From: Streptosporangium becharense
GTDB taxonomy: Bacteria; Actinomycetota; Actinomycetes; Streptosporangiales; Streptosporangiaceae
Length of the DNA: 64,000 nucleotides
Assembly (NCBI RefSeq): GCF_014204985.1
Contig: NZ_JACHMP010000001.1
Location: 558,001-622,000 of the forward strand
Reading direction: 5' to 3'
Under the pieces are notes generated by a model. The model made no database searches, was not told the DNA's origin, and saw nothing but the letters and a program-made list of their open reading frames with translations. Every line of letters begins with the position of its first letter. Positions within the stretch are counted from its first letter, which is position 1. Shown one piece after another: positions 34,154-49,834 of the stretch. The translations under genes and the position numbers were made by a program.

Positions 34154-35428
34154 ATGACCCCACGTTCACCCCGCCGCCGACTGGCCGGGGTCGCCCTGCT
34201 CGCACTGGCCGCCGTGACCGCCTGCGGCGGTGGAGGGCAGCAGGACGCGAAAGCCGCCGACCAGGGCGTCACCATCACGATGTGGACCCGCGCCGCCACC
34301 CAGGCGCAGAGCGAGAGACTGGTGGCGGCCTACAACAACAGTCACAAGAACCAGGTCAAGCTGACCGTCATCCCCACCGACAACTACCAGCCGCGGATCG
34401 CCTCGGCCGCGGGCGCCCGGCAGCTTCCCGACGTCTTCGCCGCCGATGTGATCTTCGTACCCAACTACACCTCCCAGGGCCTGTTCCTGGACGTCACCGA
34501 CCGGGTGAACAAGCTCCCCTTCAAGGACTCCCTCGCCCCCTCCCACATGAAGCTGGGCACCCGGGAGGGCAGGCTCCACACGCTGCCGCACACCCTGGAC
34601 CTGTCGGTGTGGTTCTGGAACAAGGACCTGTACGCCAAGGCCGGGCTCGACCCGGAGAAGGGCCCCACGACGCTCAAGGAGTTCGCCGAGCAGGCCACCG
34701 CCGTCGACGAGAAGCTCGGCAAGGACGGCAAGGTGCACGGCACGTTCTTCGGCGGCAACTGCGGCGGCTGCTACGTCTTCACCTTCTGGCCCTCGGTCTG
34801 GGCCGCCGGCGGGCAGGTCATGAACGCCGAGGGCACCGCCTCGCTCAACGACCAGGCCCCGATGACCGACGTGTTCAAGGTCTACCGCGACCTGTACGCC
34901 AAGGGCGTGACCGGGCCGACGGCCAAGGAGGAGCAGGGGCCGACGTGGACCGGTTTCTTCCCCAAGGGGGAGATCGGCGTGATGCCGATGCCGTCCACCA
35001 CGCTCGGCACGATGCCGGCGGACATGAAGATCGGTGTGGCGCCGATCGCCGGCCCCGACGGCGGCGAGTCCACCTTCGTCGGCGGCGACTCCATCGGCAT
35101 CTCCGCCACCTCCGAGCACGCCGACGCGGCCTGGGAGTTCCTCGCCTGGACCGTCTCGGACGAGGCCCAGGTGGAGGTGATGGCCAAGAACAAGGACGTG
35201 CTGGCGCGCACCGACCTGAGCGGCAACAAGTACTCGTCCGCGGACCCGCGCGTGGTGCTGATCAACTCGCTGGTGGCCAAGGGGCAGACGCCGTACGCCC
35301 CCCGCTTCGGGGAGACCTTCAACGACCCGCAGGGGCCGTGGCTGCGCCTGGCCCGCGAGGCGGTCTTCGGGGACGCGGCCAAGCTCCCCCAGCTGAACGC
35401 CGACATCAACAAGTCGCTGCAGCAGTAG
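34154..35428 (+). CDS. Sugar ABC transporter substrate-binding lipoprotein
   Basis: A 424-residue family 1 binding protein with lipoprotein signal (LAGVALLALAAVTACGGGG; lipobox VTAC). The mature part has the usual TIMWTR-like first strand, FFGGNCGGCYVFTFWPSVWAAGG and GGDSIGISATSEHADAAWEFL. It contains an unusual CGGC pair. First gene of a LacI-regulated operon ending in GH127; an arabinofuranose-containing oligosaccharide is the likely ligand by context. GGGAGGAG precedes the ATG. Confidence 0.92.
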   Translation: MTPRSPRRRLAGVALLALAAVTACGGGGQQDAKAADQGVTITMWTRAATQAQSERLVAAYNNSHKNQVKLTVIPTDNYQPRIASAAGARQLPDVFAADVIFVPNYTSQGLFLDVTDRVNKLPFKDSLAPSHMKLGTREGRLHTLPHTLDLSVWFWNKDLYAKAGLDPEKGPTTLKEFAEQATAVDEKLGKDGKVHGTFFGGNCGGCYVFTFWPSVWAAGGQVMNAEGTASLNDQAPMTDVFKVYRDLYAKGVTGPTAKEEQGPTWTGFFPKGEIGVMPMPSTTLGTMPADMKIGVAPIAGPDGGESTFVGGDSIGISATSEHADAAWEFLAWTVSDEAQVEVMAKNKDVLARTDLSGNKYSSADPRVVLINSLVAKGQTPYAPRFGETFNDPQGPWLRLAREAVFGDAAKLPQLNADINKSLQQ

Positions 35429-35450
35429 CAGACGGCCGAGGAGGAGCAGG

Positions 35451-36383
35451 ATGAGTGTCACGCTGGACCGGCCACCGCGCGAGATCGCGCGCGGTTCCAC
35501 CCCGTCACCGCCACCGTGGTGGCGCGGCCGGAAGGCACAGGGCTGGCTGTACGCCACGCCCACGGCGCTGATCGTCGGCGTGCTGTTCGTGGTGCCGCTG
35601 ATCCTGGTGGTCTGGATGTCGCTGCACCGCTGGCCGCTGCTGGGTGGGGCCACGTTCAACGCGCCGGACAACTACACCAAGATCACCGACAACCCGCTCT
35701 TCCTCGACTCCGTGTTCTTCACGCTGAAGTACACGGTGATCGTCACGGTCCTGCTGTCGGCGACGGCGCTCGGCCTGGCCCTGCTCGTCCAGGAGCGCAG
35801 GCCGGGCGTCGGGTTCTTCCGCACCGCCTTCTTCCTGCCGGGGGCGGTCGGCTTCGCCGCGGCGGCGCTGCTGTTCTACGGCATGCTGAACAACGACTTC
35901 GGCCCGATCGACCCCATCCTGCAGACCCTGGGGATCACCGACGAGCCGGTGAAGTGGATCGGCAGCCCGGACGCGGCGCTGTTCTCCACCATCGCCCTGG
36001 TGCTGTGGCGCTTCGCCGGGTTCAACATGCTGATCCTGCTCACCGGGCTCCAGGCCATCCCGGTGGAGGTCTACGAGGCGGCCAGGTCGGACGGCGCGAA
36101 CCGGTGGCAGATCTTCACCAGGATCACGTTGCCGCTGCTGCGTCCGACGATCGCCCTGATGCTCATCCTCAGCGTCACCGGCTCGCTGCTGGCCTTCGAC
36201 CAGTTCTTCATCTTCACCAACGGCGGCCCGGACAACAGCACGGTCTCCATGGTCATGGTCGTCTACCGGGAGGCGTTCTTCCGCTTCGACCTGGGCGGGG
36301 CCGCCGCGATCTCGGTGGTGCTGCTGCTGGCGCTGGTGGCGCTCAACGTACTGCAGATGCGGGTGCTTCGGAGGTCCCAGTGA
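35451..36383 (+). CDS. Sugar ABC transporter permease (MalF type)
   Basis: A 310-residue six-helix permease. Its EAA loop is IPVEVYEAARSDGANRWQIFTRITLPLLRP. It lies 22 bp after the binding protein and overlaps the next permease start by 4 bp (GTGA). No ATPase subunit is present in this operon either, so the same shared ATPase as for the 16.8-20.1 kb transporter could serve it. Confidence 0.93.
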   Translation: MSVTLDRPPREIARGSTPSPPPWWRGRKAQGWLYATPTALIVGVLFVVPLILVVWMSLHRWPLLGGATFNAPDNYTKITDNPLFLDSVFFTLKYTVIVTVLLSATALGLALLVQERRPGVGFFRTAFFLPGAVGFAAAALLFYGMLNNDFGPIDPILQTLGITDEPVKWIGSPDAALFSTIALVLWRFAGFNMLILLTGLQAIPVEVYEAARSDGANRWQIFTRITLPLLRPTIALMLILSVTGSLLAFDQFFIFTNGGPDNSTVSMVMVVYREAFFRFDLGGAAAISVVLLLALVALNVLQMRVLRRSQ

Positions 36384-37171
36384 GAAAAGGCGGACGGCCG
36401 CAGGGGATGCGGTACTACACGACGGTGTCCGCCCTGGCGGTGCTGTTCCTGTTCCCCCTCCTCTGGAGCGGCTGGGCGTCGATGGAGGAACCCGGCAACT
36501 ACCTGGAGATGGCGCGCTTCGGCGAAGGGCTGGGCACATACCTGACCAACAGCGCACTGGTCTCGGCGATGACCGTCGCCGGCACGCTGACGGTCTCCGC
36601 CCTGGGCGGCTACGCCTTCGCCCGTTTCGACTTCCCCGGCAAGAACCTGCTGTTCCTGGTCACGCTGGCGATCCTGATGGTGCCCTACGCGACCATCCTG
36701 ATCCCGCTGTACGTGCTGCTCGGCCACATCGGCCTGCAGAACTCGCTGGTCGGCCTCAGCCTGGTCTTCGTCATGTTCCAGCTCCCGTTCGCGCTGTTCA
36801 TGATGCGCAACGCCTTCGAGGCGATCCCACGCGAGTTGGAGGAGGCCGCCATGGTCGACGGCTGCGGTACCTTCCGGGCCTTCGCCCGCATCCTGCTGCA
36901 CGCGGTTCGGCCCGCCCTGGTCACCGTCGGGCTGTTCGCCTTCCTCGCGTCCTGGAACGACTTCTTCGCGCCACTGATCCTGCTCAACGACGGCGCGAGC
37001 TTCACCCTGCCGGTGGCCGTGGTCAGCATGACCCAGCAGACCTTCGGCGCCATCGACTACGGCATGTTGCAGGCCGGGGTCATGGTCATGGCTCTTCCCT
37101 GCCTCATCCTCTTCCTCGTCCTCCAGCGCCACTACGTGCGCGGATTCATGTCAGGAGCTCTGCGTGGCTAG
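36380..37171 (+). CDS. Sugar ABC transporter permease (MalG type)
   Basis: A 263-residue permease beginning at a GTG that overlaps the preceding stop (GTGA), with GGAGG five bases upstream. EAA loop: IPRELEEAAMVDGCGTFRAFARILLHAVRPA. Six predicted helices. Its 3' end overlaps the GH127 start by 8 bp, which points to translational coupling of uptake and hydrolysis. Confidence 0.93.
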   Translation: MRKGGRPQGMRYYTTVSALAVLFLFPLLWSGWASMEEPGNYLEMARFGEGLGTYLTNSALVSAMTVAGTLTVSALGGYAFARFDFPGKNLLFLVTLAILMVPYATILIPLYVLLGHIGLQNSLVGLSLVFVMFQLPFALFMMRNAFEAIPRELEEAAMVDGCGTFRAFARILLHAVRPALVTVGLFAFLASWNDFFAPLILLNDGASFTLPVAVVSMTQQTFGAIDYGMLQAGVMVMALPCLILFLVLQRHYVRGFMSGALRG

Positions 37172-38969
37172 TCCCGTCATGCCCTCCTCGGGTGCGCTGT
37201 CCCCCCTCGGTCTCGACGCCGTACGCCTGGCCCCCGGCTTCTGGGGCGACCGGACGGCGCTCAACCGCGACGTCGTCATCGCCCACTGCCGGGAATGGAT
37301 GGAGCGGGAGGGCTGGATCGGTAACTTCCGCGGCGAGCGGCCCCGGCGCGGCAGGGAGTTCAGCGACTCGGAGATCTACAAGCTGCTGGAGGCCATGGCC
37401 TGGGCCGATCACCCCGACCTGCCCGAGCTGGCCGCCGTCGTCGCCCGTGCCCAGGAGAGCGACGGCTACCTCAGCACCCGCTGGAGCCAGGCCCGCTACA
37501 CCGACCTGGAGTGGGGCCATGAGCTGTACTGCTACGGCCACCTGATCCAGGCCGGCGTCGCCCGGCTGCGGACGCACGGCGAGGACGAGCTGACCGGGGT
37601 CGTCCGGCGGGCGGCCGACCACGTGTGCGACCACTTCATGGACTCCACGCGAACGTGCGGGCACCCGGTCGTGGAGATGGCGCTCGTCGAGCTGTACCGG
37701 GCCACCGGTGTCGAACGCTACCTGGAAATGGCCCGCCGGTTCGTCGAGCGGCGCGGCCTGCCGGCGCTCGGCGAGATCTCCTTCGGCCGCGCCTACTTCC
37801 AGGACGACATGCCGGTACGGCAGGCCCAGGTGTTCCGCGGGCACGCCGTGCGAGCGCTCTACCTGGCCAGCGGCGCGGTCGACGTGGCCGTGGAGACCGG
37901 CGACGCCGAACTGCTGAAGGCGGTCGAGACCCAGTGGGAGCGCACCGTCGCGCGGCGCACGCACCTGACCGGCGGGATGGGGTCGCGGCACACCGACGAG
38001 TCGTTCGGCGAGGACTTCGAGCTGCCGCCCGACCGGGCGTACTCGGAGACGTGCGCCAGCATCGCCTCCGTCATGCTGAGCCATCGCCTGCTGCTGGCCA
38101 CCGGGGACGCCCGCTACGCCGACCTGGCCGAGCGCACCCTGTACAACGTGATCGCCACCTCCCCCGCGCTGGACGGGCGCTCGTTCTTCTACGCCAACCC
38201 GCTCCAGGTCCGGGTCCCGGCCGAACCGAGCGAGGGGGTCAACCACGCGGCCGAGGGGGGTCTGCGCTCCCCCTGGTTCGACGTGTCGTGCTGCCCGAAC
38301 AACATCGCCCGCACCCTCGCCTCGCTGCCCGCCTACCTGGCCTCGGCCGACGGCGACGGGGTGCGCGTCCACCACCACGCGTCCGGGGAGATCCGCCACG
38401 ACGGTCTCACGCTCCGGCTGGAGACCGGCTACCCCTGGTCCGGCCGGGTCACCGCGCACGTCGTCGAGGGCCGCGCCGCGCGCATCTCGCTGCGCGTCCC
38501 CTCCTGGGCTGCGGGTGCGACCCTCTCCCACGGGGGGACGTCGCGGCCGGTCGAGCCCGGTTACGCCACGGCCGAGGGCGACTGGCGGCCGGGCGACCGG
38601 ATCGACCTCGACCTGCCGATGCAGCCCCGCTGGACCTTCCCCGACCGGCGGGTGGACGCGGTACGCGGCTGCGCGGCCGTCGAGCGCGGCCCGCTGGTCT
38701 ACTGTGCCGAGTCCGCGGGCGACGAACCGCCGCTGGCGCGGATCGCCGTGGACCCCGCCCCGCCCGCCGAGCACCACACCGACGGGGCCGTCGAACTGGA
38801 CGTGACCGCACGCCTCACGCCCGCCGCCGAGGACACCTGGCCGTACCGGCCGGACCGCCCGGACCTCTCGGACGAAGACGGCGAGCGGGTCACGCTGCGG
38901 CTCGTGCCCTACCACCGCTGGGGAAACCGCGGGCCCGCGACGATGCGCGTCTGGCTTCCCCTGGCATAA
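37164..38969 (+). CDS. Beta-L-arabinofuranosidase, GH127
   Basis: A 601-residue enzyme with an (alpha/alpha)6 barrel and C-terminal beta domains. It matches characterised HypBA1 at all catalytic positions by spacing: general acid E279 (TDESFG), zinc ligands E295 and C297 (SETCAS) and C376-C377 (SCCPNN), the first being the nucleophile cysteine. It should release L-arabinose from beta-L-arabinofuranosides such as hydroxyproline-linked chains. No signal peptide, so it acts inside on imported oligosaccharides. GTG start overlaps the permease gene. Confidence 0.92.
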   Translation: MASPVMPSSGALSPLGLDAVRLAPGFWGDRTALNRDVVIAHCREWMEREGWIGNFRGERPRRGREFSDSEIYKLLEAMAWADHPDLPELAAVVARAQESDGYLSTRWSQARYTDLEWGHELYCYGHLIQAGVARLRTHGEDELTGVVRRAADHVCDHFMDSTRTCGHPVVEMALVELYRATGVERYLEMARRFVERRGLPALGEISFGRAYFQDDMPVRQAQVFRGHAVRALYLASGAVDVAVETGDAELLKAVETQWERTVARRTHLTGGMGSRHTDESFGEDFELPPDRAYSETCASIASVMLSHRLLLATGDARYADLAERTLYNVIATSPALDGRSFFYANPLQVRVPAEPSEGVNHAAEGGLRSPWFDVSCCPNNIARTLASLPAYLASADGDGVRVHHHASGEIRHDGLTLRLETGYPWSGRVTAHVVEGRAARISLRVPSWAAGATLSHGGTSRPVEPGYATAEGDWRPGDRIDLDLPMQPRWTFPDRRVDAVRGCAAVERGPLVYCAESAGDEPPLARIAVDPAPPAEHHTDGAVELDVTARLTPAAEDTWPYRPDRPDLSDEDGERVTLRLVPYHRWGNRGPATMRVWLPLA

Positions 38970-39040
38970 CCCGCGCCGGCACAGCCCGCGCTGCCATAAC
39001 CCACGCTGCCATAACCCACGCCGGCATGACCCGCACGTCT
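38966..39040. repeat. 15-bp tandem repeat at the GH127 3' end
   Basis: Five degenerate copies of a 15-bp unit, ATAACCCACGCTGCC-like, run from the stop codon of the GH127 gene. The two central copies differ only in their last bases and the outer ones at two or three positions. The unit carries the TAA stop, as if the stop-codon region had been amplified. The remaining 145 bp to the next gene shows no other feature. Confidence 0.75.
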
Positions 39041-39185
39041 CCGCCGCCGCGGCCCGGGCTCCGGCCGACGCGGCCCGCGCGTCCCCGCCGGCGTGCCCCT
39101 CCGGCTCCCGTCCACACGGCCCGTCCGTCCCCGCTGACGTATCTCACCCCCCACAGGGATATCTCCGGCACACCAGGAGGAACAT

Positions 39186-42100
39186 GTGCGTAGATTCCTG
39201 TCCGCGTTGACGGTGCTGGGACTCGCGAGCGGCCTGCTCACGCCCGCGTCCCCGGCCCTCGCCGCGGCACCCGCCCTCGTCGCCCCCGACCCGCTCGGGT
39301 GGCCGTCCTTCACCGGCGGCGACCCGGTTCCCGACGAGCCCGTCGCCTATCACCCCCGGCACACGCTCAAGGAGATCTACAAGAAGGAGAAGGGCGGCGA
39401 CTCCTACTGGATCGACCGCATGCTCGCCCGCCCGGGTGACGACCCGGCGGGGCCGTGGCTGATGACACGCGGCCGGGCCCTGTTCATGAAGGAGCACGAC
39501 CCGGCCGTCGTCGGCTTCGGCGGCAGGGTCGCCTACTGGGAGAGTGTCGACGACCGCGACGCCTACACCGTCTCCCTCGGCACGGACCTGCGCGAGGACG
39601 TGGCCGGGCGGCTGCAGACGCCCAGCCACTGGAAGGGCGAGTACACCGGTGACGGCCTGGCCGTCACGGTCAAGAAGTTCATCACCCACCAGAACGTCGC
39701 GGTCACCACACTGGCGGTGACCAACACCGGCACCGCGCAACGGGACGTCCCGGTCACGGTGGAGTCGCCGTACACGACGTCGGCGGACGGCGACCGCGAA
39801 CTGACCGGCGTGGTGACCGCGAAGAACCGGCTCACCACGATCTTCCCCAGGCTCAGCGGCGACGGGCTGAAGGCCCGCGACGGCAAACTGACCGGAACGC
39901 TGAGCATCGCCCCCGGCGCGACCGCGCGCACCAAGGTGCAGATGGGCTTCGTCACCGAGGAACTGCCGGCCTCGCGCGAGGAGTACGACGGGTACAAGGG
40001 CCGCTCGCCGGAGAAAGCGCTGCGGCGGCACCTGCAGGACTACAACGCCTGGTGGGCGGAGAACCTGCCCTACATCGACGTGCCCGACGAGAACATCAAG
40101 AAGTTCGTCTACTACCGCTGGTGGCTGATGCGCTTCAACTACCTCGACGCGGACATCCCCGGTGACGACTTCCAGTTCCCGACCTCCGTCGAGGGTGCGC
40201 TCGGCTACAACAACGCGATCGCGCTGACCGTGCCGATGTTCGTGCAGGACCTGAAGTACCTGCGCGACCCGGTCTACTCCTACGGGCCGTGGGTCTCGGC
40301 GGGCGAGGTGTCGCGCAACTCCAAGTACACCGACAACCCCGGCGACCCGGAGAACTGGTCCAACAGCTACACCCAGTACATCTCGGCCGCGGCGCTGGAG
40401 AGCTACCAGATCCACGGCGGGCAGCCCGGCGTCCTGCGCAACCTCGCCAGGTACGCGGAGAAGGACGTGTACGGGCAGCTCGCGGCGTACGACTCCAACG
40501 GCAACGGCATCATCGAGTACGACTGGGAGGCCATGACCGGCAACGACGCCGACGCGGTCTCCTTCCACTACTACGACCGGGCCAACGAGCGGGCCGAGGG
40601 CGCCTACGTCTACGCCAACGCCCAGGCCGCCGCGCAGGCCTACGAGCTGATCGGCGAGACGGCCAAGGCCGCCGAGATGCGGGGCGTCGCGGACAAGGTG
40701 AAGAACTCCATCCTGGACCTGCTCTGGGACGACGAGGCCAAGGTCTTCAAGCACCGCGACCTGCAGACCGGCAACCTCATCCCGTGGAAGGAGAGCAACA
40801 ACTACTTCCCGTTCAACGTGGGCCTGGTGCCCGCCGACGACCCGAAGTACCGCGAGGCGCTGCGTCTGTGGGCCGACCCGGCCGAGTACCCGATCTTCCC
40901 GACCTTCACCGCCAACCAGAAGGACAAGGCCGAGGCGCAGGCCCAGGGCAAGCCGGGCACCAACAACTTCTCCCAGCTCAACTCCACCCGGCACTTCTCC
41001 CTGTTCGGCAGGGCACTGCGCGAGTACGCCTCCCCGTACATCACCCCGCAGATGTACAAGCAGATGCTCTACTGGAACGCCTGGGCCCAGTTCGTCGGCG
41101 GCGACGTCCGCTACCCGGACGCCAACGAGTTCTGGGCCAACTGGAACCCGGCCACCAAGAGCATCGACTACCGCTCCTGGATCCACCACACCATCCTGGG
41201 CAGCAGCAACTGGACGATCATCGAGGACGTCATGGGGCTGCGTCCGCGGTCGGACGCGAAGGTGGAGCTGTGGCCGGTGGACATCGGCTGGGACCACTTC
41301 ACCGTCAACAACCTGAGGTACCGCGACTCCGACCTGACCATCGTCTGGGACAGGCCGGGCGACGGGAAGACCCACTACGCGGGTGTCCCCGAAGGGTATT
41401 CGATCTTCATCGACGGCAGGCGGAAGGTCACCCTGAGCGGCCTGGCGCACGCCGTGTGGGACCCCGCCACCGGGAAGGTCGAGGGCGGCACGGTCGTGCA
41501 CGCCGAACGCGCCACGATGCGGGAGCCCACCCGGGTGGCCCTGAAGGGCGACCGGATCGAGGACATGTTCCGCAAAGCGGGCGTCGACCTGCGCTCGAGT
41601 GCCCCGAACCTCGTCAGGAGCGCCGCCGCCTCCCACGGCGACCCCGCCGGGGCCGTCGACGGCTTCACCGTCAACGAGCCGTACTGGGACAGCAAGGGCT
41701 CCGGGAAGCCGCAGGACTGGCTTGAGGTCGACCTGGGGTCACCGCAGCCGGTCGACGACGTGCGGCTGCACTTCCGCAACGACCGCGCCGTCGGCGGCCA
41801 CAGCGAACCCGCCCTGTACACCCTGCAGTACCTCGACGGCGAGACCTGGAAGAACGTGCCGGGCCAGGCGAAGGAGCCCGCCTACCCGCGGGCCAACCTC
41901 AACCACGTGCGGTTCCCCGCCGTCACCACCCAGAAGCTGCGCGTCCTGGTCACCCACCGCCCCGGCCACGCCACCGGGGTGAAGGAGATCCAGGTCCGCT
42001 CCACCGGGGCGGAGGCCCCGCAGGCGGCCAACCACGCCCCCTACGTGCTCGCCGTGCAGGACCGGACGTTCGCCCGGCCCGGCCAGGTCCGCCTGACGGC

Positions 42101-43211
42101 GGTGGTCAAGGACGACGGGCTGCCCTCCGCCGAGCTGACGGCGGAGTGGAGCGCCGTGGACGGCCCCGGCGAGGTGTTCTTCACCGACCCCGCCGGAGCC
42201 ACCGGCACGATCGCCACGTTCAGCGAGGCGGGGACGTACCGGCTGCGGCTCACCGCCTCCGACGGCGCGCGCTCCACCGCCGCCACGGTCGCCGTCACCG
42301 TCGGCGACCCTGGCGCGCAGAGCAACGTCGCCGCGTACGCGGCCCCGACCGCCTCCTACACCTCCCCGTGGGAGAAGGTCACCGCGGTCAACGACGGCAT
42401 CGACCCGCCGCGCTCCAACGACGCCGCCAACCCCCGCTGGGGCACCTGGCCGCAGCAGGGCGACCACTGGGTCCAGCTGGCGTGGCCGGCTCCGGTGCGG
42501 GTCGACAAGGCCGACGTCTACTTCTTCGACGACGGCGGCGGTGTGCGCGTCCCCGCGTCCTACGCGATTCAGTACTGGGACGGCGACTCCTTCGAGGACG
42601 TGCCGGGAGCCGACGGGTACCCCGCCGCCGTCGACCGCTACAACACCGTCTCCTTCGACGAGGTGACCACGTCGCGTCTGCGGATGCGGCTCACCTCCGG
42701 CCAGGGCTCGGTCGGGTTGCTGGAGTGGAAGGTGTACGCCGTACCGCCGGAGGGGGCACGTCCCGTCCACGTGCCCACCCCGGTGGGCACGCTGCCCACC
42801 CTCCCCCGCACGGTCGAGACGTTCTACTCCGACGGAGCGCGCGGCCAGGCCGGGGTTACCTGGCAGCCGGTCACACCTGAGCAGGTGAAGACCGGGGGCA
42901 CCAGCTTCACCGTCGCCGGTCTCGCCGAGGGCCTGCGCGAGCCGGTGCGGGCGACCGTGTACGTCCGCACCAGCACCGCGGTGACCGTCACCTCGATCGC
43001 CGAGGAGCCGGTGGCGACCCGCGCGGGCGTGGCCCCGTCGCTGCCCTCCACCGTCGTGGCCACCTACAACGACGGCTCCCGGGACAGCTCGGTGAAGGTG
43101 ACCTGGGACGCCGTCGATCCCTCCCGGTACGCCGAGCCCGGCACCTTCACCGTCGCGGGCCGGGTGGAGGGCACGACCGTGCAGGCGAAGGCGGTGGTGA
43201 CGGTCCGGTAG
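39186..43211 (+). CDS. Large secreted multidomain glycoside hydrolase
   Basis: A 1341-residue exported protein. Sec signal 1-27 (ending PALAA). Residues about 90-270 are a beta-sandwich and 285-690 an (alpha/alpha)6 catalytic barrel of the MGH1/GH63-like kind (KKFVYYRWWLMRFNYL, EYDWEAMTGNDAD, YVYANAQAAAQAYELIG). Then follow a discoidin-like domain (about 815-940), an Ig-like domain (about 950-1040), a second discoidin-like domain (about 1045-1190) and two Big_4-type Ig domains at the C-terminus. Substrate unknown; with GH127 and the LacI operon upstream, plant arabinan or arabinogalactan chains are plausible. GTG start behind AGGAGGA. Confidence 0.85.
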   Translation: MRRFLSALTVLGLASGLLTPASPALAAAPALVAPDPLGWPSFTGGDPVPDEPVAYHPRHTLKEIYKKEKGGDSYWIDRMLARPGDDPAGPWLMTRGRALFMKEHDPAVVGFGGRVAYWESVDDRDAYTVSLGTDLREDVAGRLQTPSHWKGEYTGDGLAVTVKKFITHQNVAVTTLAVTNTGTAQRDVPVTVESPYTTSADGDRELTGVVTAKNRLTTIFPRLSGDGLKARDGKLTGTLSIAPGATARTKVQMGFVTEELPASREEYDGYKGRSPEKALRRHLQDYNAWWAENLPYIDVPDENIKKFVYYRWWLMRFNYLDADIPGDDFQFPTSVEGALGYNNAIALTVPMFVQDLKYLRDPVYSYGPWVSAGEVSRNSKYTDNPGDPENWSNSYTQYISAAALESYQIHGGQPGVLRNLARYAEKDVYGQLAAYDSNGNGIIEYDWEAMTGNDADAVSFHYYDRANERAEGAYVYANAQAAAQAYELIGETAKAAEMRGVADKVKNSILDLLWDDEAKVFKHRDLQTGNLIPWKESNNYFPFNVGLVPADDPKYREALRLWADPAEYPIFPTFTANQKDKAEAQAQGKPGTNNFSQLNSTRHFSLFGRALREYASPYITPQMYKQMLYWNAWAQFVGGDVRYPDANEFWANWNPATKSIDYRSWIHHTILGSSNWTIIEDVMGLRPRSDAKVELWPVDIGWDHFTVNNLRYRDSDLTIVWDRPGDGKTHYAGVPEGYSIFIDGRRKVTLSGLAHAVWDPATGKVEGGTVVHAERATMREPTRVALKGDRIEDMFRKAGVDLRSSAPNLVRSAAASHGDPAGAVDGFTVNEPYWDSKGSGKPQDWLEVDLGSPQPVDDVRLHFRNDRAVGGHSEPALYTLQYLDGETWKNVPGQAKEPAYPRANLNHVRFPAVTTQKLRVLVTHRPGHATGVKEIQVRSTGAEAPQAANHAPYVLAVQDRTFARPGQVRLTAVVKDDGLPSAELTAEWSAVDGPGEVFFTDPAGATGTIATFSEAGTYRLRLTASDGARSTAATVAVTVGDPGAQSNVAAYAAPTASYTSPWEKVTAVNDGIDPPRSNDAANPRWGTWPQQGDHWVQLAWPAPVRVDKADVYFFDDGGGVRVPASYAIQYWDGDSFEDVPGADGYPAAVDRYNTVSFDEVTTSRLRMRLTSGQGSVGLLEWKVYAVPPEGARPVHVPTPVGTLPTLPRTVETFYSDGARGQAGVTWQPVTPEQVKTGGTSFTVAGLAEGLREPVRATVYVRTSTAVTVTSIAEEPVATRAGVAPSLPSTVVATYNDGSRDSSVKVTWDAVDPSRYAEPGTFTVAGRVEGTTVQAKAVVTVR

Positions 43212-43218
43212 TGCCGCC

Positions 43219-43250
43219 GGACCCGCCGGGCCCTCCCGCCCGGCGGGTCC
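43219..43250. terminator. Terminator hairpin after the large glycosidase
   Basis: GGACCCGCCGGG and CCCGGCGGGTCC form a perfect 12-bp stem with an 8-nt loop, starting 8 bp after the stop codon. Confidence 0.8.
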
Positions 43251-43266
43251 GTCTCAGGGCCGTACG

Positions 43267-43297
43267 TGCCCCGGGGCGGTGTCACCGCCCCGGGGCA
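43267..43297. terminator. 31-bp palindrome between convergent genes
   Basis: Two perfect 15-bp arms, TGCCCCGGGGCGGTG and its complement, flank a single central T. It lies between the large glycosidase and the convergent DUF916-like gene and would act in both orientations. The near absence of a loop makes it a cruciform-type palindrome. Confidence 0.65.
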
Positions 43298-43346
43298 GCC
43301 GCACGCCGGACGCCCCGCCGCGTCCACCCGGCCGGCGTGCGACGAG

Positions 43347-43405
43347 ACCGCCGGGCGGGTGCCCGGCGGGCGTCAGGCGAAACCGTCGGGCGGGTGCCCG
43401 GCGGG
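43347..43405. repeat. Direct repeat flanking the stop codon of the DUF916-like gene
   Basis: A 24-bp element (ACCG[C/T]CGGGCGGGTGCCCG, then GCGGG) occurs at 43347-43370 and 43382-43405 with one mismatch. The right copy codes the last residues of the DUF916-like protein, the left copy lies just beyond its stop. Confidence 0.65.
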
Positions 43406-44506
43406 GACCTCCGGCCGGGTGCGGAGGCGCCGGGCACGCAGGACCAGCAGGAGGGCCACCGCGACGGCGACGGCGAGCAACCCGGTGGCCGTCAGGACCG
43501 GTGTCAGCGGGAAGCCCCGCACGGCCGGCAGGCCCCAGGCCCCGGCCTTCTCCGGGAGGGTGAGGGTGCCGGTCTCCGTGTGCTCGACCCGGCCGCTGCG
43601 CAGGGTGAGCCGGAACTTCCACGGTCCGGACGGCAGGTCCACGCCCAGCGGCACGACGACCTCTCCGCGACCACCGGGTGCCAGGGTCGTGCCGCGGGAG
43701 ACCGGGAAGGGCCCGGCGCTCATGGAGCTCGGTCCTCCGGACAGCGACAGCCGCCCCTCGATGTCGAGAGCGCGGTGGCCGGTGTTGGCGACGGCCACCG
43801 TGACCTGCGGCCGGCCGTCCTCGGCCCGCAGGGGGACGACGTCGCCGATCGTGAAGTCCGAGGCCGGTTCGCCTCCGGGGCCGACGTCGAGGTAGGCGCG
43901 GATCCCGACCCGGTTGACGATGGCGACGTTGCCCTGCGGGCCCGGCTGGGCGGAGGAGACCTGTGCCCAGATGACGGCGTACCGTTCCGCCTTGCCGGCC
44001 CACTCCGGCACGGCGACGGTCGCCTTCACCCGCGCGCTGCCCCGGGCGGGCAGGTCGACCGCGGCGCGGTCGAGCGTGATCCATGAGCTCAGCTCGTTGG
44101 CGGTCCGCTCCGGGGCGAAGGTGAAGCGGGAGCCCTTGATGTCGGCAGCGGCCGCGTACAGCTCCACGCGCTGGGGTTTCGGCGAGGTGCTGTGCACCTC
44201 CAGCCGCCGGGTGAAGGTGGTGCCGGGGTTGACGTGGTCGACGATGAAGTACCGCGCGCGTGGGTCGTCGGCGCGGTTGGCCGGGATCTCCAGCAGCCGG
44301 ATGCCGATGGCGCCGTCGGCGGCCACCCGGCCGGGGACGGCACCGTTGACGGCACCGGCCGGGTGGACGAGGATGGCGCCCGCGGCGGCGGTGGCGGCGG
44401 CGGCGTGGCCCGCCGACGCCGCGGCCGGAGCACCGGCCGTCCCGTGCAGGAGGAGGACGCACAGCACCGCCGCGAGGGTGGGCCGGCGCAGCGCTGGGTC
44501 AGGCAA
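43373..44506 (-). CDS. DUF916 (WxLIP)-like cell-surface protein with C-terminal membrane anchor
   Basis: A 377-residue exported protein. After a signal segment (PTLAAVLCVLLLHGTAGAPA), residues about 60-180 (GIRLLEIPANRADDPRARYFIVDHVNPGTTFTRRLEVHSTS...) resemble the peptidoglycan-binding DUF916 domain of WxL-interacting proteins: a DP..RYF element followed by PG.T..R.LEV.N.S. A second Ig-like domain (about 200-320) would correspond to DUF3324. Then one membrane helix (LTATGLLAVAVAVALLLVL) and a basic tail, as in Firmicutes WxLIPs. TTG start overlapping the upstream WxL-like gene by 8 bp. Resemblance is by pattern only. Confidence 0.7.
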   Translation of the reverse strand: MPDPALRRPTLAAVLCVLLLHGTAGAPAAASAGHAAAATAAAGAILVHPAGAVNGAVPGRVAADGAIGIRLLEIPANRADDPRARYFIVDHVNPGTTFTRRLEVHSTSPKPQRVELYAAAADIKGSRFTFAPERTANELSSWITLDRAAVDLPARGSARVKATVAVPEWAGKAERYAVIWAQVSSAQPGPQGNVAIVNRVGIRAYLDVGPGGEPASDFTIGDVVPLRAEDGRPQVTVAVANTGHRALDIEGRLSLSGGPSSMSAGPFPVSRGTTLAPGGRGEVVVPLGVDLPSGPWKFRLTLRSGRVEHTETGTLTLPEKAGAWGLPAVRGFPLTPVLTATGLLAVAVAVALLLVLRARRLRTRPEVPAGHPPDGFA

Positions 44507-45080
44507 CGGAGTGGTTCACCGTGCCGGTGTAGGTGCCCGCCACCGCCTGCGCGGGGACGTTGACGACAATGGTCGGGTTCCAGGTGGCGGAGTTGTTGCC
44601 GGAGCCGCTGGTCTTGCGGAAGGCGATGCGGATCTCGTCCAGCGTCTGCGCGTCGTTCACGGTGAGCTGCCCGGGGACGAAGGTGCCGGTGCCGGTGGTG
44701 GCGGTCGCCGGGCCAGACCAGTAGCTGATGGCGCTGGTGGGGATGACCTCGGCTGCGGTGCCGCCGCCGGTGGTGAAGCCTCCGGATGCCGCGCTCACCG
44801 ACGCCGTCCAGGTGGCGGTGAGCGCGGCGCGCTGGTCGGTCACCGTGACCGCGCCGAGTTGTCCGCTGATCTGGTCACCCGGGTTGTCGGTGCCCAGGTT
44901 CACCGGGCCGTCGGGCACGGTGATCGTCAGGGTGCCCGCCGCCGCCACGACGAACGTCACCGTGGTGGAACACGTGGTGTTCGCGGCGCAGGTGTCGGCA
45001 TGGGCGGGCACCGCCATGACCATGGCCACCATCGCGCCGGCGACACCTACCAGTGGGATGCCGAGACGGCTCTTCGACAC
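44499..45080 (-). CDS. WxL-like secreted surface protein
   Basis: A 193-residue exported beta-rich protein. Signal: SRLGIPLVGVAGAMVAMVMAVPAHA. The body contains GTLTITVPDGPVNLG, QLGAVTVTDQRAALTATWTASVSA, a central SYWSGPAT, and the C-terminal block SATWNPTIVVNVP...AGTYTGTVNHSVA. Firmicutes WxL domains have the same order (LGxVTVxDxR, WTxSVSA, then a Trp strand and GTYTGTxxHSV), although here the second motif is W-N-P, not W-x-L. Two N-terminal cysteines may pair. GTG start behind GGAGGGGG. It is translationally coupled to the DUF916-like gene. Confidence 0.7.
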   Translation of the reverse strand: MSKSRLGIPLVGVAGAMVAMVMAVPAHADTCAANTTCSTTVTFVVAAAGTLTITVPDGPVNLGTDNPGDQISGQLGAVTVTDQRAALTATWTASVSAASGGFTTGGGTAAEVIPTSAISYWSGPATATTGTGTFVPGQLTVNDAQTLDEIRIAFRKTSGSGNNSATWNPTIVVNVPAQAVAGTYTGTVNHSVA

Positions 45081-45536
45081 TGCCGACCCCCTCCGTCGAA
45101 TCTCCCGCCCCTGCCGGACGGGTGTCAGGTGATCGCATCCTGCTCCACGACCGGCCGCCGGAAACGAACGCAACGGGCATCTGGCAACTCTTGGCGATCA
45201 GATTGTTTCTTTCTGTGCCGGGCCGTCCGGCGCCCGGCTCCGCCCTCGTCGTGGTGCCCGCGCGAATTCCCCGGTCGACCGGCCCCGCGACGGTCGTTTT
45301 TCACGTTTTTGGTCGTTTTTGGCGTTATTCGTCTCCGCCCGCCATGACCTGGCGAGAGGAGAAATAGCTGGGAAAAATACCGTTCCCCCGCACCCCCGGG
45401 CCCTTTTCCGGGAATTTGCCGTCCACGGGCGAGGAACGGGAAAGCGGGCCCGTTTGGATGATCTAGGCTGCGATCTGCTTGCCGGCGTCGACCGGACGTC
45501 CCGCGCCAGCCCCACAGGACACCTTTGAGGAATCAG
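45081..45536. promoter_or_regulatory. Divergent region between two WxL-like genes, with phased CGTTTTT repeats
   Basis: About 456 bp without a gene. CGTTTTT occurs at 45295, 45304 and 45314 and CGTTATT at 45323, a spacing of 9-10 bp, about one helical turn. The surroundings to 45380 are unusually AT-rich for this genome (GAGAAATAGCTGGGAAAAATACC). A second AT-rich stretch, CAGATTGTTTCTTTC, lies near 45201. The array is a candidate for co-operative regulator binding on one DNA face or intrinsic bending, serving both divergent genes. Confidence 0.5.
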
Positions 45537-46124
45537 ATGAGGAAGAGCCCCGCGGCCCCCTTCGCCGGGCGGGCCCCCCTGCCGCCAGCGACGGCACCCG
45601 CCCTGGCGCTCGCCCTGGCGCTCGGACTCGGCGTCCCCACCGCCTCTGCGTACTCCGCTCCCCCCTGGGGAACGGCGTTCTCCCACCGCGCCGAAGGACT
45701 GTGGATCACCGTGCCGAACGCGGCGAACTTCGGCCTCCTCTCGCCCGGGGGCAGCGTCAGCGTCTCGCTCGGCGCGGTGACCGTGGAGGACAACCGGCCG
45801 GGCACCCGCAGCTGGACGGCGGTCGTGTCGGCGACGAACTTCACCGCCGGTTCCGGGGCCACGCTACGGACCATCGCCAGGGGCAACGCCGCCTACTGGT
45901 CGGGCCCGGTCACCGATTCGTCGGGCGCCGGCAACCGCATCCCGGGGCAGACCGAGGCCGCGCAGCGGGTCGCGCTGACGGGGCAGGTGATCGCGTTCCG
46001 CGGTTCCAAGACGCCCGTCATCCCCATCACCGTCACGACCTGGCGGCCGACGATCGTCCTCACCATCCCGGCCGGCACCGCCACGGGCACCTACACCGGC
46101 GCCATCTCCCACTCGGTCGCCTGA
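45537..46124 (+). CDS. WxL-like secreted surface protein, paralog of the divergent gene
   Basis: A 195-residue exported protein with a long signal (PATAPALALALALGLGVPTASA). The mature part shares the order of motifs with the divergent WxL-like protein: LWITVPNAANFG, VSLGAVTVEDNR, SWTAVVSATNF, AAYWSGPVT, PGQ and the C-terminal TTWRPTIVLTIPAGTATGTYTGAISHSVA. It lacks cysteines in the mature part. The ATG follows GAGG at 6-nt spacing; a TTG 12 bp upstream is less likely. No membrane anchor, so it probably sits on the wall through its fold or the DUF916-like partner. Confidence 0.7.
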   Translation: MRKSPAAPFAGRAPLPPATAPALALALALGLGVPTASAYSAPPWGTAFSHRAEGLWITVPNAANFGLLSPGGSVSVSLGAVTVEDNRPGTRSWTAVVSATNFTAGSGATLRTIARGNAAYWSGPVTDSSGAGNRIPGQTEAAQRVALTGQVIAFRGSKTPVIPITVTTWRPTIVLTIPAGTATGTYTGAISHSVA

Positions 46125-46441
46125 CCGGCGGCCCCCACGGGAGGATCGGCACCGGTAGATCCAGTACACCTCCGGCGATTCGCCGGGAATTCCGGATATA
46201 AGACCACAAATATCATTCACATTTGCCATCCCGACCGAGGTGACCGCCGGGGAATTGACGGACTCATGACCGGCCGCGAACGTCACCGGTCGGCGATTCC
46301 GCACGGGGCTACGCGATATTTGAACAACGCGAGCCGGACGGGATGCGATCTTTCACCCATATCGGGCTTTCGGCATGCCGACCTCGATGCCCGGATGCGG
46401 CCCGCGTTCCCGTTGCCCTTCGTACCGCCGAAAGGAATGCC
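46125..46441. other. Intergenic region upstream of the Vgb-like gene
   Basis: About 317 bp without a gene. It is less GC-rich than average, with AATTCCGGATATAAGACC and ACAAATATCATTCACATTT near 46188-46225 and a GATATTTGAAC near 46314, either of which could be promoter sequence for the rightward Vgb-like gene. No clear operator is seen. Confidence 0.3.
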
Positions 46442-47572
46442 ATGCGGTATCGCTCCCGACATCTGGCGTACCCACTGCTGATCGTGGCCCTGATCCTGAC
46501 GACGAGCGGAACCGTGTCCGCGTCCGCCGCCCCGCCGAATCTCCCGTCACCCGTGCGGCCCTGGGTGAAGCTCTGCCTCAAGCTCAAGCTCCAGCCGAAC
46601 CACCGGCGGATCCGGTGCCAGTTCCCGCCCGCACCCCGCAACTCCAGGGCCGCGGCCGCATCGGCCCAGCGGCTCGCCGGGGCCCGGCTGGCGCCGACGA
46701 TCAGCGAGCTGGGCATCCCGACCTTCCCGGCGAGCCCCATCGGGATCGCGGCCGGGCCGGACGGTAACCTGTGGTTCGCCGAGAACTTCGCCAACAAGAT
46801 CGGAAAGGTCACCACCGCAGGCCTGTTCACCGAGTACACGCTTCCCACCACCGACTCCCAGCCGGCACACCTCACCGCCGGCGCGGACGGCGCCGTGTGG
46901 TTCACCGAGGCGACCGGCAACGCCATCGGGCGGATCACCACCTCCGGAACCATCACCGAATACCCCCTGCCCACCGCCAACGCCTACCCGTGGGGCATCA
47001 CCCTCGGGCCGGACGGCGCCGTGTGGTTCGTCGAGTCCGACGCCAACGCGATCGGCCGGATCGACACCTCCGGCACCATCACCGAGTACCCCCTGCCGAC
47101 CAGCGGCTCCTACCCCATGCGCATCACCGCGGGCCCGGACGGCAACCTGTGGTTCACCCAGCCGCTGGCGAACGGCGTCGGACGGATCACCCCCAGCGGG
47201 ACGATCACCGAGTTCACCGCCCCGACCTCCACCGCGATGCCCGTCGGGATCACCGCCGGCGCGGACGGCAACCTGTGGTACACCGACGCCGACGGGAAGG
47301 TCGGCTCCGTCACTACCTCGGGCGTCTTCACCGAGTACCCGCTCAGCGACCCCGACGGCTTCGCCTGGGGCATCAGCATCGGGCCGGACAACAACGTCTG
47401 GTTCGTCGGGCAGATCTCCAACATCGTCGGCAGCGTCACCCCCGGCGGGACCATCAGCGAGCACCCGCTGCCGACCACCGTCTCCGGGCCGTTCGACATC
47501 ACGCTCGGCCCCGACGACAACCTCTGGCTCACCGAGAACTACGTCGACCAGATAGCCGTCGTGACCCCCTGA
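46442..47572 (+). CDS. Secreted virginiamycin B lyase-like beta-propeller
   Basis: A 376-residue exported protein. Signal: HLAYPLLIVALILTTSGTVSASA. After a basic linker come seven blades of about 42 residues with the repeat GPDGNLWFTE...N.IGRIT.SG.ITEYPLPT, the NHL-like signature of Vgb/streptogramin lyase propellers. Vgb lyase linearises streptogramin B using histidine and glutamate residues; the blades here are dominated by the structural repeat and I cannot confirm the active site, so it may instead be a binding or adhesive propeller. AAGGAA precedes the ATG. Confidence 0.82.
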   Translation: MRYRSRHLAYPLLIVALILTTSGTVSASAAPPNLPSPVRPWVKLCLKLKLQPNHRRIRCQFPPAPRNSRAAAASAQRLAGARLAPTISELGIPTFPASPIGIAAGPDGNLWFAENFANKIGKVTTAGLFTEYTLPTTDSQPAHLTAGADGAVWFTEATGNAIGRITTSGTITEYPLPTANAYPWGITLGPDGAVWFVESDANAIGRIDTSGTITEYPLPTSGSYPMRITAGPDGNLWFTQPLANGVGRITPSGTITEFTAPTSTAMPVGITAGADGNLWYTDADGKVGSVTTSGVFTEYPLSDPDGFAWGISIGPDNNVWFVGQISNIVGSVTPGGTISEHPLPTTVSGPFDITLGPDDNLWLTENYVDQIAVVTP

Positions 47573-47587
47573 CCTCATGACCGGCCT

Positions 47588-47627
47588 GGCCGGCGGTCGC
47601 GGCGCACACCCGCCGCGACCGCCGGCC
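47588..47627. terminator. Strong bidirectional terminator
   Basis: A perfect 17-bp stem (GGCCGGCGGTCGCGGCG and its complement) with a 6-nt loop lies 15 bp after the Vgb-like stop and 36 bp from the stop of the convergent phosphatase gene. Confidence 0.85.
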
Positions 47628-47662
47628 GTACCGCATTTCCGGGGTTTCCGGGGTTCCCGGGG

Positions 47663-49834
47663 TCACCGGGTGACCGGCCGGGCGGGCTCTTCCCCGTCCG
47701 GCCGCGGGTTGAGCAGGAGCAGGGCGATGTCGTCGCTGCGGGAGTCGGCGTGCCGCACCTGGCGGACGAGGGTGTCGGCGAGGTCGTCCATGGAGACGTA
47801 CCGGGCCCGGCCGAGACGGGCGGCGAGATCGTCCACGGCCTCCCCCAGATCGGCGCCGGGGGTCTCGATAAGGCCGTCGGTGTACAGGGCCAGCACGGCG
47901 CCGGGCGGCAGGACGATCTCGACGGTGAGGTAGTCGGCACCGGGATCGATGCCGAGGAGCGGGCCGGGCGGGATGTGCAGGACCTCGGTCCGGCCGTCCG
48001 GGTGGCGCAGCAACGCCGGAGGATGGCCGGCGGTGGTGAGGTACGCCCGGTGACGCGCCAGGTCCAGGTGGGCGTACAGGCAGCTGGCGAACAGGTCCGG
48101 ATCGAGGTCGATGAGCAGGCGGTTGGTCCGGGCCAGGACCTCGCCCGGGGCCGCACCGGCGCTGGCGTAGGCGTGGACGGCGGTGCGGACCTGCCCCATG
48201 AGGGCGGCGGCGGTGACGTTGTGTCCCTGCACGTCGCCGATGACGGCGGCGACGGTGGTGTCGTCCAGGCGGAGCAGGTCGTAGAAGTCGCCGCCGATGT
48301 CCATGCCCAGGGTGGCGGGCCGGTAGCGGGCGGCCACCCCCAGCCCGGGGAGGGAGGGCAGGGCGTGCGGCAGCAGCGCCTCCTGCAGGCCCTGGGCGAG
48401 CTGGTGCTTGGCGTCGTAGAGACGGGCCCGGTCCAGGGCCTGGGCGATCAGTCCGGCGAGCGAGGTGAGGATGGCGCGCTCGTCGTCGGGAAAGGGATGG
48501 GGCTGGCGGTAGGAGAGCACGCAGCAGCCGACGGGGCGGCCCGAGGTGATCAGCGGCAGGAACGCCCAGGCGCACTTCTGGGTCAGTTCCGGGATGCCGG
48601 GGGCGACCCGCTCCATCTCCTCGGGAGAGGCGAAGAAGTTGGGGACGCCGCTGATCATGGCGCGCGCCGCCGGAGACTGTGAGAGATCATGGGAGATCCT
48701 GTCGAAGTGGTCGAGTGCGTCGGCGCTGTAGCCGCGCTGGCCGACGCCGCGCAGCCGGCCCCCCTCGGTCACGAACAGGATGAGCCCCTGGGCGTCGTAG
48801 GCGGGCATGATCTGGTCGGCGACCAGGTCGACCACGTCCTGCACGCTGACGGCCTCGGTGAGCGTGGCGGCCAGGTGCATCAGGTGGTAGAGCGCACCCG
48901 CCCGGATCGGTCTGCCTTCGGGTGCCGCGGGCTCGTCCGCCGCCCCGCCCGGGTCGCCGGTCGCCTCACTCGGTGTGATGCGCACGCTGATGCCGGTGGC
49001 GTCCGGGTAGAGCCGGAAGGTCAGCCACCTGTCGGGAGGACGCAGCGCGGTGAAGGAGACGGGCCGGCGGCCGATCATCGCAGACCGGTAGCGGTCCTCG
49101 TAGGTCAGGTCGTCCAGCCACGGCAGCGCCTTGCGGGGCAGTTCTCCGAGCAGGTCCGCGCCGCGGCGGCCGAGCAGGTCGGCGGCGGTGGTGGTGACGA
49201 AGACGATCCGTCCCTCCGTGTCCAGCGCGCAGCACCCCTCGGGAAGACGCTCGGCGAAGTCCACGGCGGCCAGGGCCTCGGCCGGATCCACCGTGCGCAG
49301 ACGCGGCTGGACCAGCATGTGCGGCTCCGGCTCGGGTGAGAGCGGATGGCCGCTGTCGGCGGCCCGCCGCAGGATGGCGCCCATGCGGCGGCAGGAGACG
49401 CCGATGACGCCGGCCTCCCCCGGGGTGAGCCGTGGCGGGTGGATTCCGGGCCACAGCAGCACCAGGGCTCCCCAGCAGATGGTGCCGGTGAGGATCGGGG
49501 AGGCCGCCAGCGCGAAGTGGTAGGGCAGCGTGAGCGCCGCCCGTGGGTAGCGGCTCGCCATGTCCGCCTGGGTGCCGACCCATACCAGGCGGCGTTCGCG
49601 CACCGCGTCGGCCACCGGTATCGGGGCCGCCAGCGCCACCCGTTCCCAAGGGCCGGCGAACTCCCGGGAGATCCCGCCCAGCACCGCCAGCCGCAGCACC
49701 TGATCGCCCGGCGGAAGCAGGTAGATCATTCCTATGGCCGCCCCCACCTCCTGCATCGTCTGGATCAGGAGCTGGTCCAACCGGTCCAGCGGATCCAGGT
49801 CAGGGCCGCCGGAGGGCACGGCGTGGTCCCGCAT
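47663..49834 (-). CDS. GAF-PAS-GAF-PP2C (SpoIIE-type) serine phosphatase
   Basis: A 723-residue cytosolic signalling protein. Residues 1-165 form a GAF domain, 190-290 a PAS domain (LPEGCCALDTEGRIVFVTTTAADLLGR), 315-490 a second GAF domain and 500-720 the SpoIIE/PP2C catalytic domain. The metal-binding signatures are GGDFYDLLRLDDTTVAAVIGDVQGHN and VLALYTDGLIETPG plus SRSDDIALLLL. Such enzymes dephosphorylate anti-anti-sigma factors in stress and development pathways. No cognate STAS or anti-sigma gene is adjacent; the neighbouring SulP gene has a STAS domain but of the transporter type. Confidence 0.92.
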   Translation of the reverse strand: MRDHAVPSGGPDLDPLDRLDQLLIQTMQEVGAAIGMIYLLPPGDQVLRLAVLGGISREFAGPWERVALAAPIPVADAVRERRLVWVGTQADMASRYPRAALTLPYHFALAASPILTGTICWGALVLLWPGIHPPRLTPGEAGVIGVSCRRMGAILRRAADSGHPLSPEPEPHMLVQPRLRTVDPAEALAAVDFAERLPEGCCALDTEGRIVFVTTTAADLLGRRGADLLGELPRKALPWLDDLTYEDRYRSAMIGRRPVSFTALRPPDRWLTFRLYPDATGISVRITPSEATGDPGGAADEPAAPEGRPIRAGALYHLMHLAATLTEAVSVQDVVDLVADQIMPAYDAQGLILFVTEGGRLRGVGQRGYSADALDHFDRISHDLSQSPAARAMISGVPNFFASPEEMERVAPGIPELTQKCAWAFLPLITSGRPVGCCVLSYRQPHPFPDDERAILTSLAGLIAQALDRARLYDAKHQLAQGLQEALLPHALPSLPGLGVAARYRPATLGMDIGGDFYDLLRLDDTTVAAVIGDVQGHNVTAAALMGQVRTAVHAYASAGAAPGEVLARTNRLLIDLDPDLFASCLYAHLDLARHRAYLTTAGHPPALLRHPDGRTEVLHIPPGPLLGIDPGADYLTVEIVLPPGAVLALYTDGLIETPGADLGEAVDDLAARLGRARYVSMDDLADTLVRQVRHADSRSDDIALLLLNPRPDGEEPARPVTR

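Follow-up and report, generated by a model that had tools for sequence, protein, structure and literature searches.

Streptosporangium becharense possesses a compact locus for two small exported proteins and one membrane-anchored protein, and this locus is likely the actinobacterial counterpart of the WxL/WxLIP (Csc) platform of Firmicutes, built with a remodelled WxL domain, whose Firmicutes-type docking and wall-holding roles we infer. The locus lies in a window of 64,000 nucleotides (contig NZ_JACHMP010000001.1, positions 558,001 to 622,000 of the forward strand), to which all coordinates refer. Within 2.8 kb it contains a WxLIP-like gene (43373..44506, minus strand, 377 amino acids, TTG start), whose product has a signal peptide, DUF916-like and DUF3324-like domains and a C-terminal membrane helix with a basic tail, and the genes of the small exported WxL-like paralogues A (44499..45080, minus strand, 193 amino acids, GTG start) and B (45537..46124, plus strand, 195 amino acids, ATG start), which are about 40% identical. 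The three open reading frames and the motif order reported for the paralogues in the initial annotation are all present, and since relatives in many genomes repeat both the motifs and the gene order, they are not due to chance. The assignment is based on profile homology of both components together with failing controls, a bridge locus, co-occurrence and adjacency of the genes, the membrane helix with basic tail and without LPxTG, the C-terminal position of the domain in large proteins, the link of B with a beta-propeller gene, and PDB entry 9i25, in which a WxL domain surface protein and EfmWxLIP1 are present together.

Homology of the two components was revealed by profile comparison. Profile A1, composed of window A and B plus 35 of 49 WxL-like frames and gathered without the WNPT and HSV patterns, matched 12 annotated Firmicutes WxL proteins at 97.3% (E 1.7e-11, 136 columns); against 6 of the 12 the value was 95.3%, and profile A7 gave 96.1%. 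Profile A3, composed of the window WxLIP-like protein plus 27 of 39 WxLIP-like frames, matched Firmicutes DUF916/DUF3324 proteins at 96.4% (E 1.1e-9) in an alignment that runs across both domains (240 columns), showing the order DUF916 then DUF3324 in the window family, while profile A8, made of 40 WxLIP-like proteins, gave 96.0%; the reference alignment consisted of 4 Firmicutes rows, 7 of the 11 original rows being left out. Reversed profiles and crossed pairs reached 0.1-3.1% only. Judged from these sequence profiles, A, B and the WxLIP-like protein are homologues of the proteins encoded by the WxL/WxLIP (Csc) surface cluster in Firmicutes, in agreement with the earlier proposal that the paralogues are WxL-related and the third protein DUF916-related. 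In a sample of 296 Actinomycetota genomes, 19 pass PF06030 (DUF916) and 4 pass PF13731 (WxL). A bridge locus of this phylum (genome G280, L095/L145) passes PF13731 and scores 62.6 bits to window A and 238 bits to the window WxLIP-like protein.

Searches with single window proteins found little. A and B showed no match to PF13731, the WxLIP-like protein scored 11.3 bits against PF06030 (cut-off 27.3), and NCBIfam gave nothing above cut-off. At E <= 0.01, PF13731 matched 6 of 55 relatives (best 5e-4) and PF06030 matched 16 of 40 WxLIP-like relatives. From the N-terminal motif NQIDKxxxYFDLK, comparison by eye recognized only the skeleton N..D....YF....PG in the window WxLIP-like protein. The PDB gave no match to window A alone and three weak matches to profile A1 (best E 0.048), with no WxL protein among them.

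The W-x-L motifs are changed in the window proteins, where the first position reads W-T-A and the second, at the C-terminus, reads H-S-V. Motif 1 keeps D-x-R and the tryptophan; their spacing in B is the published one (D at W-8, R at W-6), and in A it is one residue longer. Across 135 aligned domains (one gap), the leucine position of motif 1 never shows L, only A, S, T or V. Motif 2 begins with histidine in 134 of these domains, and motif conservation over the 135 is partly built in, as the survey patterns included WNPT and HSV; in A1, which was gathered independently of those patterns, W198, P200, H221 and V223 are each conserved at 90% or more. W122 and H221 lie 99 residues apart in A as well as in B; among small proteins, 113 of 119 have an interval of 97-99, and the 16 large frames have 92-97. 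The published spacing of the two motifs is roughly 106 in small and 68 in large WxL proteins (PMC9772566).

The initial annotation had placed W-N-P/W-R-P in the position of the second W-x-L. This register is contradicted by the published distal motif, given as YXXX(L/I/V)TWXLXXXP (PMC5817068), and by the profile alignment, which places H-S-V of the actinobacterial ending YTGT(V/I)xHSV on W-x-L. Profile alignment and bridge sequences together rule out W-N-P/W-R-P as the second motif, the bridge sequences having V, L, T, E, F or H at the W-N-P site and then the same ending. Eighteen bridge proteins could be compared, with a chance match in L094 set aside and a doubtful motif-1 match in L101. Six of them have histidine at the second site, and each of these six has a W-x-P about 23 residues before it and lacks W-x-L at motif 1. 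The other 12 have no such W-x-P (L093 has a tryptophan nearer the turn), and six of them keep the motif-1 W-x-L; the 18 rows are related to each other, so that these changes are not independent events. We keep open that W198 may take over the role of the second tryptophan in space, as in a rough hairpin count it would face about V223, with the turn at 208-213. The whole domain is homologous to WxL, but with the defining dual W-x-L motif lost and the Pfam cut-offs not passed, the proteins represent a homologous variant and not a WxL family member as defined.

The two gene types were found to occur together in relatives. Among 120 related genomes, the own genome included, a WxL-like gene was present in 29 and a WxLIP-like gene in 33, and all 29 possess both (Fisher p 7e-24, kinship ignored). 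In the 296-genome phylum sample, 23 of 25 genomes with a WxL-like gene also have a WxLIP-like gene (p 4e-17, kinship ignored) and the two remaining each have a PF06030 match. WxLIP-like genes are present in 55 of the 296 genomes, 32 of them without a WxL-like match, so that a DUF916-type protein can also stand by itself or have a partner which the profile misses. Gene order was analyzed in a named survey of the best 80 of 278 loci, found with patterns that included WNPT and HSV; 79 loci were used, from genera including Streptosporangium, Nonomuraea, Microbispora, Micromonospora, Streptomyces, Kitasatospora, Actinoallomurus and Glycomyces. In 67 of the 79, both genes share a strand and the WxLIP-like stop follows the WxL-like stop by 800-1400 bases. 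Plasmids of Kitasatospora and Streptomyces, large or linear ones (L161, L162, L163), also bear WxL-like genes under the annotation hypothetical protein, hinting that the system may move between species. In viral contigs, 31 pattern matches were obtained and none was confirmed.

In some relatives the WxL-like domain forms the C-terminal end of a large protein. Such proteins carry fn3, Ig and lectin-like domains in Micromonospora and Catellatospora (the lectin match is below cut-off), an FG-GAP propeller in Kitasatospora (L221) and ice-binding-like domains in L116, from the genus of the window, and L142. Pfam scanning of 9 of the 16 large frames showed known outer domains in six, none in two (L202, L225) and a transposase-like match in L222; the large frame of L174 resembles a long open frame that precedes a small gene. 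A C-terminal location behind ligand-type domains is the pattern of an anchoring module, parallel to the concanavalin-like domain described in some CscC proteins (PMC1534035). The window locus has no large protein with this domain, and the genome search found only A and B. More distant actinobacterial HtaA or GH18 proteins (L146, L148), encoded next to DUF916-type genes, have a C-terminal WxL match below cut-off, with L-T-L in place of the last W-x-L.

Downstream of paralogue B, after 317 bp, begins a gene for a seven-bladed beta-propeller protein of the virginiamycin B lyase family (46442..47572, plus strand, about 376 amino acids from ATG 46442; PF24684, 350 bits), which carries an export signal as read by eye. 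A propeller gene stands beside the divergent small B gene in 22 of 23 survey loci, L175 being the exception; 19 of the 23 were counted by a strict rule, and L173, L182 and L186, where stop-to-stop frames overlap, were added. This link across loci is new here, as is the finding of the WxL-like domain at the end of large proteins. In a quick tree of the WxL-like sequences, made without bootstrap and with one fragment under 100 amino acids left out, B-type sequences formed one group with window B, comprising 23 rows (all 19 labelled as propeller-linked and 4 others; Shimodaira-Hasegawa-like approximate likelihood ratio test, SH-aLRT, 99). The N-terminal extension of the propeller shows a W-V/I-K/R/Q-x-C pattern in 18 of 26 linked frames, as WVKLC in the window frame, and the window genome has two genes of the propeller family. 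The unit probably extends to the end of the propeller gene at 47572. The earlier view of a compact actinobacterial version is correct for A, B and the WxLIP-like gene; it does not cover the large multidomain proteins ending in the same domain, nor the tie of B to a propeller outside the annotated interval. A comparable arrangement is present on a Paenibacillus plasmid, where a gene for an RCC1-repeat protein adjoins WxL and DUF916 genes, and this protein is itself a weak WxL match (20.8 bits, cut-off 25).

The WxLIP-like proteins have a uniform C-terminal architecture. By hydropathy threshold, a C-terminal hydrophobic helix is present in all 40 proteins of A8, 39 of the 40 have a basic tail (at least three K/R within the following 15 residues), and LPxTG was found in none of the 40. 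According to the positive-inside rule, a basic tail behind the helix points to the bacterium's own cytoplasm. CscA is presumed to be oriented in this manner (Siezen 2006, PMC1534035), and insertion of the WxLIP helix into the host membrane has also been proposed (Hassan 2023, PMC10599100). The WxLIP-like protein would sit in the membrane of the bacterium itself, its two beta-sandwich domains lying within the wall. By homology to the Firmicutes pair, paralogue A should dock on the WxLIP-like protein; in the published models a WxLIP strand completes the WxL sandwich (PMC10599100), and PMC5817068 cites two E. faecium WxL proteins that bind their membrane protein. By analogy with Firmicutes, the WxL-like domains may hold peptidoglycan without a covalent bond. 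From its gene neighbourhood, B could be a second wall-binding module which displays or partners the exported propeller, the propeller being the putative ligand-binding part. The likely role of the locus would be non-covalent, sortase-free surface display.

Several points weigh against a WxL/WxLIP counterpart. None of the three window proteins passes the Pfam cut-offs, neither W-x-L motif is intact in A or B, and weak matches to other families occur among the 40 WxLIP-like proteins (fn3_5 in 10, NPCBM_assoc in 7). In 12 of the 79 survey loci no WxLIP-like gene is nearby (one of them, L198, is clearly at a contig end), and the distribution is patchy, with only 33 of 120 relatives possessing a WxLIP-like gene. 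Together with the single-sequence searches, which found nothing above cut-off, the weak matches to choice-of-anchor D (13.1 bits), the GH123 N-terminal domain (12.4 bits) and glycoside hydrolase chains (E 0.05) could mean that the likeness to WxL and DUF916 is the general likeness of exported beta-sandwich proteins. We consider this very improbable, as the matching profiles reach E 1e-8 to 1e-11 against 0.1-3.1% for reversed and crossed pairs, bridge sequences score over the Pfam cut-off and the gene pairing is the same as in Firmicutes.

A more credible, though still unlikely, explanation is that the proteins are homologous but re-purposed as soluble or hyphal/spore-surface structural WxL-like proteins, with the WxLIP-like protein as a membrane-bound assembly factor and no anchoring to peptidoglycan. 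It would fit the change of both W-x-L motifs, the resemblance of the sandwich-completing WxLIP strand to chaperone action (PMC10599100) and source organisms that are not gut commensals, but the domain also stands behind ligand-type domains at the end of large proteins, where an anchor module would be expected. For the propeller gene alone, its 350 bits to PF24684, the matches to solved streptogramin B lyases and the 317 bp gap to B would suit an independent streptogramin B lyase for self-protection which merely neighbours surface genes. The export signal, the link with B in 22 of 23 divergent-B loci and the missing PH[AG]IT histidines make such an enzyme improbable; these histidines, as in 2qc5, are absent from the window propeller, and we take them to be catalytic in virginiamycin B lyase. 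A counterpart of the WxL/WxLIP platform remains the preferred reading of the locus.

A wider scheme can be tentatively drawn, which we regard as possible rather than probable. The WxL domain may have been rebuilt in actinomycetes, the second tryptophan being moved from the last strand to the facing one (W-N-P) and a conserved histidine placed at the old site. The domain would then serve sortase-free display in many Actinomycetota, with the cargo either fused to it (fn3 and lectin-like domains, FG-GAP propeller, ice-binding-like domain) or split off, as where a dedicated adaptor B holds a separate beta-propeller, and with WxLIP in the bacterium's own membrane; the system as a whole would not be specifically directed at animal hosts.

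The start sites of the locus genes were read from the sequence and, for A and B, differ from the open reading frame list. The most likely start of paralogue A is GTG 45080, with GGAGGGGG just upstream (45173 in the list), and ATG 45537 is preferred for B over TTG 45525 of the list; the TTG start codon of the WxLIP-like gene gives an 8-nt overlap with the end of paralogue A. No further copy of A or B was found at E <= 0.01 in the 7.82 Mb genome, in which one WxLIP-like gene was found. The divergent region between A and B (45081..45536) contains ATCTAGGCTG at 45461-45470, about 70 bp before B; this 10-mer is common to 6 of 18 A-B intergenic regions and is possibly a promoter element, and no other motif common to these regions was found. 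An Rfam scan of 43000-47700 gave no match at gathering score. Close to the N-terminus of the mature protein, A-type sequences have a pair of cysteines, in the window as C-A-A-N-T-T-C and in many relatives as C-P-A-S-T-T-C; the pair may form a disulphide and is lacking in B. On one side of the locus (34154-43208), consecutive genes encode a sugar-binding protein, an ABC permease, a beta-L-arabinofuranosidase of family GH127 and a large glycoside hydrolase, MGH1-like, that also has F5/8 type C and Big_4 domains. This row resembles a cluster for polysaccharide use; gene-cluster comparison did not show its conservation beside WxL-like genes. On the other side, a SpoIIE phosphatase gene with GAF and PAS domains (47666-49834, minus strand) adjoins the propeller gene.

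WxL systems are known almost only from Lactobacillales and Bacillales and are mainly read as host-contact and virulence devices; over 91% of 938 WxL sequences are reported from Firmicutes (PMC9772566). A homologous system in soil actinomycetes, with adjacent genes in dozens of species, argues for a more general role in wall display, and the basic tail (39 of 40) fits anchoring in the own membrane and speaks against the published proposal of an entry of the helix into a host cell. The family also provides natural variants without W-x-L for asking the purpose of the motif, and possibly a C-terminal surface-display module for actinomycetes. In the available text of PMC9772566 and PMC10599100, a word search found no occurrence of actinobact-, actinomyc- or Streptomyces, and among the papers found in an open-licence library, no title or abstract beginning described an actinobacterial WxL system. 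DUF916 genes near Ang-2 proteins are reported in PMC12537917. DUF916 is annotated on plasmids of Streptomyces, Clavibacter, Arthrobacter and Cellulosimicrobium, so the WxLIP half is already known to annotation pipelines; the matches of window A are named hypothetical protein in 9 of 10 named plasmid records.

Among known systems, the closest are the WxL/Csc clusters of Lactobacillales and Bacillales, with PF13731 for WxL, PF06030 plus DUF3324 for WxLIP (CscA), CscB as small and CscC as large WxL protein. The actinobacterial locus shares with them homologous small WxL-like and WxLIP-like proteins, adjacent genes, export, the C-terminal membrane helix, D-x-R...W of motif 1, Y-x-x-x-(V/I) before motif 2 and the C-terminal position of the domain in large proteins. 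It differs by W-T-A and H-S-V in place of two W-x-L motifs, by an added W-x-P, by WxLIP-like proteins without LPxTG, by a separate propeller gene beside B, and by large proteins with the small-type motif spacing (92-97 against the published 68). The propeller shares its repeats with the virginiamycin B lyase family (PF24684; 2qc5, 2z2n), from which it is set apart by export, the N-terminal extension and the missing PH[AG]IT histidines. Both components of the Enterococcus faecium WxL-WxLIP pair (PDB 9i25; 9i1y for WxLIP) have homologues at the window locus; the actinobacterial pair is known from sequence alone and profile A1 alone does not find 9i25_A in the PDB; the printed segment of 9i25_A ends in TYQGMVTWEL, like YTGTVNHSV of the actinobacterial family.

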